DNA from: Streptococcus merionis DSM 19192
GTDB lineage: Bacteria > Bacillota > Bacilli > Lactobacillales > Streptococcaceae
Reading direction: 5' to 3'
Length of the DNA: 64,000 nt
Assembly: GCF_000380085.1 (NCBI RefSeq)
Contig: NZ_KB904540.1
Coordinates: forward strand, 23,686-87,685
Shown: positions 17,126-19,711 of the stretch, in pieces
How the letters are laid out: the number at the start of each line of letters is the position of its first letter
Numbering within the stretch: the stretch's first letter is position 1
The notes under the pieces: model-generated
Database searches by the model: none
The model's input: the letters and a program-made list of their open reading frames with translations, nothing else
Told to the model about the DNA's origin: nothing
Made by a program: the position numbers and the translations under genes

Positions 17126-17156
17126 ATAAAAAGCCCTTTAGCAGCAGCTAAAAGAC
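17126..17156 (-). terminator. Intrinsic terminator after the map / YihY-SerB unit
   Basis: On the minus strand CTTTTAGC-TGCTGC-TAAAGGG forms a short stem followed by CTTTTTATAT. It lies about 100 bases downstream of the fusion gene stop. The rest of 16971-17257 shows no coding frame. Confidence 0.5.
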
Positions 17157-17257: not shown

Positions 17258-18841
17258 TCACACATTTGCCTTAGCAGGCTTAATCTCATCCAGAAGTGTT
17301 ATCACCTGATAAAGGTCGTATTCATTGATTTGATAGGGTGCTAGAGCGCGCACAATCGGCTTAGCATTGAAAGCGATTCCGATACCTGCTGCCTCAATCA
17401 TAGGCAGGTCATTGGCCCCGTCACCCATGGCAATCGTCTCTGAAAGCTCAAGCTTATTCTCAGCTGCCCAAGCTTGCAACATGGCCACTTTAGTAGCTTT
17501 GGTCACCACTTCTCCCTCAGTTCGGCCAGTCAAAACACCGTCTCTCACTTCCAAACGGTTCGCCTTAACATAATCAATCCCTAACTCTTTGGCGATAGGG
17601 TCAATATTTTCATGAAAACCACCTGAAACCAAACCAATCTTGTAGCCTCTAGCATGTAACTCATCAATCAACTCCTTGGCCCCTCTAGTTAGGGTCATCT
17701 GCTTGACGACGGTATCAAAAATCGTCTCCGGAAGCCCCTTAAGCAGGGCAACTCGCTCCCTCAAGGCTTCCTCGTAATCCAAATCTCCCTGCATAGCAAG
17801 CTCAGTAATGGCCGCCATCTGCTCACCAACACCAGCTAAATCTCCCAGAATATCGATGGCCTCTTCCATCACCAAGGTACTGTCAACATCCATCACCAAA
17901 AGACCTTGAACACCACGCACTTTATTCCCACGTTTACGCCTAAATTTCTGGAACTTCTCAATGATTCCTGCAATCGTCCCGCGTCTTGGGGTAAATGTCG
18001 GCTCATCTAATTTCTGATAAGAAGCATTCAGAATAGCCCCGATAATCAAAATTTGAGCAATTAAGATAAACCAGACCATGACCAAAAGCAAAACGACATA
18101 AGACACCAGCTGGAAGTTTTCAAACTTATTCATGTACTGGCTCAAATAAAGAGAAACCAAGTTCGTTGTTGCTGTCAAAACAATCACTACAAAGAGCGTT
18201 CCCGGCAAGACATAACGGATTTTTTTGATTCTCACATTTGGCAAAATATAGTACAAAAGGAAGATGACAAAGATAAAACCAAGGTAAATCAGCGGTTGCG
18301 TCCAAGAAAGCATCCGTTGGAAAAAGTCTAAATCAATATCAATGTACCGGTGAATAAAATTGATAATCGTCTCACCAAAAAATCCAACTGAAATCAGTAA
18401 AAAGAGCATGACTTGAAGAACAAGACCAATCAAAATCCCAACTAATCGCCCAACAATCAGATCTCGGTGTTGCTCAACACCGTAAGCTTTGTTAAAGGCT
18501 TTTTGCAGGATAATCATGGACTGCGAAAAGGTCCACAAGGCTGTCGCAATGGAGATTCCCAACCATCCAGATGATGGATTGGTCAGGATACTCTCAACGA
18601 TACCACTGATATTTTCAAAGACTTCTTTAGGTAAGGTTGTCTGTAAAAAACCGAGAACATCATTCACATTGATTTGTAAAAAGGGAAGAGCAGCACTGAG
18701 CAAAAACAACAATGGAAAAGCGGCAACCAAGAAATAGTAGGCGACTGCAATGCTAGACAAGTCAATATCTGCCCCTTGATAAAATCTGATAAAATACTGG
18801 ACAAAGGGATAGTTGGTGATTTTCTGGACAAGTGCTTTCAT
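17258..18841 (-). CDS. YihY-family membrane protein fused to phosphoserine phosphatase SerB
   Basis: One uninterrupted 527-residue frame. Residues 1-about 275 are a YihY/BrkB-type integral membrane protein (six hydrophobic segments; AYYFLVAAFPLLFLL; ALWTFSQSMIILQKAFNKAYG). Residues 282-312 are a basic linker (RGNKVRG). Residues about 313-527 are a full-length SerB of the HAD superfamily: nucleophile motif DVDST (Asp318, Asp320), LVSGGF (402-407) and GDGANDLPMI (473-482). SerB dephosphorylates 3-phosphoserine, the last step of serine synthesis; the function of YihY proteins is unsettled. A GTG at codon 308 (17920) could start a separate SerB. The gene follows map by 9 bp. I know these as separate proteins, so the fusion is unusual. 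Confidence 0.9.
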   Translation of the reverse strand: MKALVQKITNYPFVQYFIRFYQGADIDLSSIAVAYYFLVAAFPLLFLLSAALPFLQINVNDVLGFLQTTLPKEVFENISGIVESILTNPSSGWLGISIATALWTFSQSMIILQKAFNKAYGVEQHRDLIVGRLVGILIGLVLQVMLFLLISVGFFGETIINFIHRYIDIDLDFFQRMLSWTQPLIYLGFIFVIFLLYYILPNVRIKKIRYVLPGTLFVVIVLTATTNLVSLYLSQYMNKFENFQLVSYVVLLLVMVWFILIAQILIIGAILNASYQKLDEPTFTPRRGTIAGIIEKFQKFRRKRGNKVRGVQGLLVMDVDSTLVMEEAIDILGDLAGVGEQMAAITELAMQGDLDYEEALRERVALLKGLPETIFDTVVKQMTLTRGAKELIDELHARGYKIGLVSGGFHENIDPIAKELGIDYVKANRLEVRDGVLTGRTEGEVVTKATKVAMLQAWAAENKLELSETIAMGDGANDLPMIEAAGIGIAFNAKPIVRALAPYQINEYDLYQVITLLDEIKPAKANV

Positions 18842-18850
18842 GACAATCTC

Positions 18851-19711
18851 CTAGTAAGTACCTTCTTCTCCTTGGCTAGTCAAAATAATTGGGCCACCTT
18901 TAGTGATGACAAATTGGTGTTCATACTGGCAAGATAGGCCACCGTCAATGGTTTTATGAGCCCAGCCCGTTTCCATATCCGTATCAATTTCCCAAGTTCC
19001 TGTATTGATCATCGGCTCGATGGTCAAGACCATGCCCTCACGTAAACGCAGACCACGGCCTGCTTTGCCATAATGAGGTACCATCGGCTCCTCATGCATG
19101 GTTGGACCAACCCCGTGACCAACTAGATCACGAACGACACCGTAACCTTGTTTTTCTGCATGTTCCTGAATCGCTGCACCGATGTCCCCAATACGATTGC
19201 CAACAACGGCCTTTTCAATCCCGATATAGAGGCATTCTTTGGTCACCTGCATGAGGTTTTTTACCTCGTCAGAGACTTGACCAACCTCATAAGCCCAGCA
19301 AGAATCCGCTAAGCCGCCACTGTATGATTGGGTGTGTTGCTTCATGGCACTCACATTGTCAAAGTCAAGTTTAGAAACATCAAGAACAGCCTTATCTAAA
19401 GGTTCTGATAAGACCATATCCACCTTGAGCAAGTCACCATCTTGGAGAATGTAGTGACGCGGAAAGGCATGGGCGACCTCGTCATTAAGGCCACAACAAG
19501 TCGCATAAGGATAGTCCATCACTTGACCGTCTACACCGATTTGCAAAGGCAGAACATTTTCTTCCTTACAACGGCGACGAACGTACTCTTCTACCTCCCA
19601 CAGGTCAAGCCCCGGTTTAATGAGGTCACGCAGACCAATATGAATGCTAGCAAGAAAGTCGCCAGCTCGGTCCATGGCTTCAATTTCACGCGCTGATTTA
19701 ATGGTAATCAT
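18851..19711 (-). CDS. map: Methionine aminopeptidase, type I
   Basis: A 286-residue metalloprotease that removes the initiator Met from nascent proteins in the cytoplasm. The pita-bread fold signature blocks are present: NDEVAHAFP, KVDMVLSEPLDK, GHGVGPTMHEEPMVPHYG and TIEPMINTG, which carry the metal ligands. A streptococcal insertion (KLDFDNVSAMKQHTQSYSGG) splits the region between the first metal-binding Asp residues. The gene starts 3 bp after the acetyltransferase stop and ends 9 bp before the YihY-SerB gene. Confidence 0.94.
   Translation of the reverse strand: MITIKSAREIEAMDRAGDFLASIHIGLRDLIKPGLDLWEVEEYVRRRCKEENVLPLQIGVDGQVMDYPYATCCGLNDEVAHAFPRHYILQDGDLLKVDMVLSEPLDKAVLDVSKLDFDNVSAMKQHTQSYSGGLADSCWAYEVGQVSDEVKNLMQVTKECLYIGIEKAVVGNRIGDIGAAIQEHAEKQGYGVVRDLVGHGVGPTMHEEPMVPHYGKAGRGLRLREGMVLTIEPMINTGTWEIDTDMETGWAHKTIDGGLSCQYEHQFVITKGGPIILTSQGEEGTY

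Follow-up and report, generated by a model that had tools for sequence, protein, structure and literature searches.

Can a membrane protein of the YihY/BrkB family and the phosphoserine phosphatase SerB be encoded as one protein in Streptococcus merionis, and, if so, what would such a protein do? The question is raised by a single open reading frame on the minus strand of the window, that is, of the whole 64,000-nucleotide stretch of DNA analyzed here, to which positions refer unless another sequence is named. We consider it probable, from the comparisons described below, that this frame is one gene common to several streptococci and that it encodes a single membrane-anchored protein, whose likely phosphoserine phosphatase half is predicted to face the cytoplasm. 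The SerB domain would hydrolyze phosphoserine at the membrane surface and the YihY half would keep a separate job of its own; there is little evidence that the two share one function. The likely steps of relocation, operon formation, and fusion are still visible in living relatives, and the fusion is a natural construct with which to test a link of YihY with serine or phosphoserine.

One frame with two domains

The fusion gene (17258..18841, minus strand) starts with ATG and stays open for 527 codons without an internal stop, as originally predicted, and both of its domains score above curated cut-offs. The YihY/BrkB membrane domain (residues 24-277; 18011..18772, minus strand; PF03631) has six predicted membrane segments and reaches 147.1 bits with the Pfam model Virul_fac_BrkB (cut-off 33.7); with the tighter NCBIfam model TIGR00765 (yihY_not_rbn) the fusion gene falls below the cut-off (49.9 vs 73.15 bits). 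The SerB domain (residues 306-517; 17291..17926, minus strand) scores 244.1 bits with NCBIfam model TIGR00338 against an equivalog cut-off of 144.15, and the Pfam HAD model matches residues 316-482 with 100.1 bits (cut-off 27). A second serB was sought in the S. merionis genome, and none was found above the family cut-off besides the fusion itself (1 of 12 matches); BrkB has a single match.

A ribosome-binding-site-like AGGAG (18848..18852, minus strand) lies 6 nt 5' of the ATG and overlaps the stop codon of map (18851..19711, minus strand), an open reading frame 9 bp upstream whose product we take to be methionine aminopeptidase; map and the fusion gene are likely co-transcribed. The same strand carries, upstream of map, what are presumably genes for a GNAT acetyltransferase and murA. 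Downstream, past a weak terminator-like hairpin 3' of the fusion gene (17133..17156, minus strand), lie what we take to be ATP synthase genes. Hairpins of this kind occur at chance level in the region, with 5 found against 5.0 expected in shuffles.

The fusion is shared by several streptococci

YihY and SerB had been described as separate proteins in other genomes. That description stands for nearly the whole genus, as the whole match lies in one frame without a stop in only 3 of the 284 genomes of our genus scan, but not for public records, in which the fusion is already present, named only "phosphoserine phosphatase SerB" (P0002, P0006). In a profile search of a protein database, both domains were found in 6 of the best 120 proteins (7999 candidates scored), the named ones being streptococcal and including S. 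moroccensis and S. rupicaprae. Used as a query against longer proteins, the SerB part brought up the same six two-domain proteins. Fusion carriers also include S. ovuberis.

Checking the junction against streptococcal sequences yielded seven further fusion sequences, 71% to 98% identical, and in all eight aligned rows, our own included, the junction is gapless, as is the alignment as far as column 519. A scan of genome contigs identified the fusion in S. moroccensis and S. ovuberis, whose genes are exactly those in genomes G109 and G136. The chance that an assembly or sequencing error merged two genes is practically nil: this explanation is refuted because independent copies exist, the eight rows coming from several species and assemblies and two of the genes recurring exactly in separately scanned genomes. 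On sequence grounds, the fusion is real and clade-wide, and it shows SerB in an arrangement of domains that is new.

Rows that cross the junction with internal stops (e.g., in G043, G037, and G248) were not counted as fusions. A candidate SerB fusion in G188 was an artefact, since a stop separates serB from the next gene; that gene, once taken to encode an EzrA-like C-terminus, which was wrong, reads as what is presumably a glycerate kinase.

No description of the fusion was found in the open-licence PMC literature. No paper there joined YihY, phosphoserine phosphatase, and Streptococcus, none came up with Streptococcus moroccensis, and titles and abstract starts retrieved for YihY with BrkB, gene fusion, or YhjD held nothing on a fusion.

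Linker, predicted topology, and candidate internal starts

The domains are joined by a linker (residues 278-311; 17909..18010, minus strand) that retains the YihY C-terminal tail and has no indels in the eight rows. Its basic character, already pointed out in the original prediction, is borne out by a count of 11 K/R against 3 D/E in loop 268-312. Since this loop is basic, the SerB half should, by the established positive-inside rule, face the cytoplasm. Hydropathy analysis resolves six distinct segments in the YihY half, with two overlapping windows merged, and the AlphaFold2 model has six long helices there. The model also places a basic helix in the linker (residues 290-305; 17927..17974, minus strand; H289-304 in the numbering of the model, which begins at residue 2), with a pLDDT of about 68-76 around it. 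The domain models have a mean pLDDT of 90, and at a pTM of 0.63 the mutual orientation of the domains is not settled. The linker sequence is not tightly kept, because it changes faster than the domains (dN between S. merionis and S. moroccensis of 0.19 vs 0.09 in each domain).

A GTG at codon 308 (17918..17920, minus strand) had been proposed as an internal start from which a second product, a free SerB, could arise. The GTG is indeed present in S. merionis, but the two relatives compared at the DNA level have GTA (S. moroccensis) and GTC (S. ovuberis) as this codon. A conserved internal start is unlikely on this comparison, because GTG308 is not shared and a start at ATG317 would leave the fold without its first strand. 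We likewise regard as rather improbable the broader possibility that the locus makes two products, the full fusion and a free SerB, whether through a start at GTG308 or ATG317 or through cleavage of the basic linker. GTG308, not conserved in the relatives, is preceded 5 nt upstream by a weak GGA. ATG317 has an AAGG 10-11 nt upstream in all three DNAs compared, but this AAGG stems from conserved coding (K/Q-G), and the strand that a start there would cut is the first of SerB (E312-316 in model numbering). ATG299 of S. moroccensis has AAGGA 10 nt upstream but is not shared. Basic linkers can be targets of proteases, which also counts for two products.

The SerB half resembles known phosphoserine phosphatases

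Preserved as originally read, the HAD motifs DVDST (residues 318-322; 17876..17890), LVSGGF (residues 404-409; 17615..17632), and GDGAND (residues 473-478; 17408..17425), all on the minus strand, are invariant in the eight fusion rows. Active-site positions were mapped by gapless offset from the phosphoserine phosphatase (PSP) of M. jannaschii, using what we take to be its phosphoserine-binding residues; 10 of the 11 are identical in all eight rows, and the eleventh, position 356, is Y in S. merionis and P0001 and F in the other six. AlphaFold2 modelled the SerB half with high confidence, and Foldseek matched it to the M. jannaschii enzyme (1f5s) with an rmsd of 1.8-1.9 and 45% identity. The half is likely an active phosphoserine phosphatase.

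The fusion has the same SerB domain, motifs, and active-site positions as TIGR00338 members, 1f5s, and the free streptococcal SerBs of ~215 aa, and the free streptococcal proteins compared are about 60% to 72% identical to its SerB half. Unlike free SerB, the fused domain is attached to a membrane domain and lacks a separate start that is conserved. SerB2 of M. avium (3p96/5is2; about 40% identity in the Foldseek comparison), a SerB with ACT domains, likewise carries an N-terminal addition, which consists of the soluble ACT domains in that protein and of a six-helix membrane protein in the fusion.

Among other SerB sequences, P0007 (296 aa) has an unusual C-terminal extension of ~80 residues, perhaps through a lost stop codon. 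The SerB matches in G074, G099, G128, G139, and G228 are weaker than usual (E values of 9e-33 to 6e-46), and the one in G099 is split in two, as would be expected of a broken gene.

The serine pathway in S. merionis and in the genus

The fusion had been proposed to tether the last step of serine synthesis to the membrane. In S. merionis, this role is unlikely and SerB appears to be an orphan, because no SerA or SerC was detected. SerC was not found in the genome by a search whose scope left PF00266 types (PMC9026213) outside. The SerA of S. moroccensis, used as a query, gave no match in the S. merionis genome, a search that had no positive control and shows nothing alone. A scan with PF02826, which matched in 14 of 14 control genomes and is the better evidence on SerA, returned six weak places in S. 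merionis, four of them above the cut-off and the best at 34.2 bits. That best place (L170), the one of the six that was read, was rejected as SerA; its frame reads as what is presumably alanine dehydrogenase.

In S. moroccensis, serC, serA, and four further frames lie between genes that we take to encode an XRE-like regulator and a GNAT protein. In S. merionis, the same flanks adjoin in the middle of a 63.6-kb contig, and the serC-serA segment is missing (G000:C7:31790-31953, corresponding to L190 about 2291-2454, compared with L180 5637-7919). Given this gap in an otherwise syntenic position, S. merionis is probably unable to synthesize serine through the phosphorylated pathway. S. ovuberis keeps both genes. 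For S. moroccensis and S. ovuberis, serC was detected with TIGR01364 in G109 and G136, and serC and serA frames are present in L180 and L181, the serA of S. moroccensis and of S. ovuberis being named on our assumption from sequence and position. The proposed last step could thus hold in these two species, which have serA and serC and in which the SerB half would complete the synthesis of serine. The SerB half of S. merionis would instead use phosphoserine of a different origin, perhaps released in the breakdown of phosphoproteins or phosphopeptides.

Across the genus, a SerB match (E <= 1e-30) was found in 258 of 284 genomes and SerC in 134 of 284, so that at least 124 of the 284 Streptococcus genomes have SerB without SerC. 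Because so many genomes keep SerB without SerC, the enzyme may be used outside serine synthesis in Streptococcus. A published study describes many Streptococcus strains as predicted serine auxotrophs and reports other types of SerC and SerB, including a PF00266 SerC in gut bacteria (PMC9026213).

Little ties the function of YihY to that of SerB

The fusion had also been expected to give YihY-like proteins a functional clue. This expectation was not supported, as 26 of the 284 genomes have YihY (E <= 1e-20) without a SerB match (E <= 1e-30) and, by eye, yihY and serB stand side by side as separate genes only in G218 among the rows listed. YihY itself was detected in 283 of 284 genomes; G196, the only one without it, has SerB. 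Ordinary streptococcal YihY proteins are about 34% to 52% identical to the YihY domain of the fusion, and in the unfused YihY/BrkB members read the domain is followed by no more than a short tail, which is often basic, whereas the fusion continues into SerB. Comparison of the YihY model with known structures gave no trustworthy transporter match, a result that excludes nothing. As judged from these data, the fusion tells only weakly of what YihY does.

The two halves could nevertheless form a coupled unit, in which YihY would transport a cargo through the membrane, be it serine, phosphoserine, or another phospho-compound, for SerB to dephosphorylate at the exit. The fusion itself and the adjacent genes of G218 favor such a unit, as does the need of an orphan SerB in S. 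merionis for another source of phosphoserine, whereas the occurrence of YihY without SerB in 26 genomes and of SerB without YihY in one argues against it. Apart from the fusion and G218 the genes lie, by eye among the rows listed, kilobases apart or on other contigs, and the structure comparison, though excluding nothing, brought no trustworthy transporter match to its aid. Since co-occurrence, adjacency, and structure give so little, we hold the coupled unit to be improbable. We give hardly more than slight credence to the specific version in which phosphoserine, or a compound containing it, is brought to the membrane or through it by the YihY half and loses its phosphate to the fused SerB on the cytoplasmic side, as a form of serine salvage. 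If true, such a salvage device could let streptococci that lack serA and serC live on outside phosphoserine, and a first substrate would then be known for the YihY/BrkB family. As regards that family, one paper states that YihY was formerly mislabelled as RNase BN (PMC2330054), and another gives YihY/BrkB as a family name only (PMC10745319).

A plausible route from separate genes to one protein

We return to the preferred reading, a single membrane-anchored protein whose halves keep separate jobs. Its gene would have arisen in three steps: serB moved next to yihY, the relocated gene formed an operon with yihY, and the stop and start between them were then lost, leaving one gene. This order is plausible from what is seen in living relatives. 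In many of the loci fetched, map lies directly upstream of yihY, which does not apply to most S. mitis-like and S. oralis-like loci. In the three other streptococci checked, SerB is encoded elsewhere, directly after gyrB-ezrA in G043 and G188 and with one small gene between in G187; within ~1.4 kb after ezrA, no serB was seen in S. merionis, S. moroccensis, S. ovuberis, or G218, the stretch of G218 being partly masked (L191 and L192 in this comparison being G043 and G187, and L193-L196 being G109, G218, G000, and G136).

G218 has the gene order of the fusion locus, murA-GNAT-map-yihY-serB, but with yihY and serB as separate genes. Its yihY stops at L120:2963-2965 and its serB begins with an ATG at 2979, 13 bases further on and in a different frame, preceded by its own SD-like GGAG. 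In G218, YihY ends in a tail (FSPRRGNVSALVKKYKLSRR...) similar to the linker found in the fusion (FTPRRGTIAGIIEKFQKFRR...), and because of this likeness the linker is most likely the former YihY tail. Matching points in yihY and serB are 112 nt apart in G218 and 81 nt apart in the fusion; the passage from two frames to one requires a difference that three does not divide, and the 31 nt found here agree with this.

Phylogenies place G218 near the fusions. In the SerB tree (49 rows), all fusion SerBs group in a single clade (95/87) that G218 adjoins (99/96), the place of G218 being unsure, as the tree program flagged the G218 SerB as a long branch. In the YihY tree (36 rows), the fusions cluster (100/99) together with the unfused P0121 and P0122, which are the closest unfused YihYs, with 63% to 69% identity to the fusion, and which sit inside the cluster in branching that is unresolved. 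Two more unfused proteins, P0123 and P0124, lie between this cluster and G218 and are nearer to the fusions than G218 is (89/86). The placement of P0121-P0124 leaves it unproven that the fusion arose once, cleanly, and was never split again; these four may represent pre-fusion lineages, may have serB at another locus, or may be later splits of the fusion.

The main competitor of the preferred reading, and one that we rate as fairly unlikely, is that the fusion is a neutral accident of a short-spaced operon, with independent halves and, in S. merionis, a SerB half on its way out. The apparent loss of SerA and SerC from S. merionis fits this account, as does one of four outgroup counts, in which SerB is faster here than in S. 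moroccensis, but the catalytic positions have been kept, the frame has been maintained across 71% to 98% identity, and the at least 124 genomes with SerB but not SerC point to some use for the enzyme. Only 2 of 24 relative-rate counts exceed the chi-square value of 3.84. In one, the SerB half of S. merionis is faster than that of S. moroccensis (outgroup P0004, 16 vs 6, chi-square 4.55); in the other, it is the S. moroccensis linker that is faster than that of S. merionis (0 vs 5, 5.0). Relaxed selection on the SerB half following the loss of serA and serC, significant with one of four outgroups against S. moroccensis and with none of four against P0003, is not claimed, and dN/dS is uninformative, with dS saturated in eight of nine comparisons.

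Among the fetched loci, L053 (4147-4940) and L073 (3954-4954) each matched map in two stretches apart from one another, as a frameshift or an interruption of the gene would produce.
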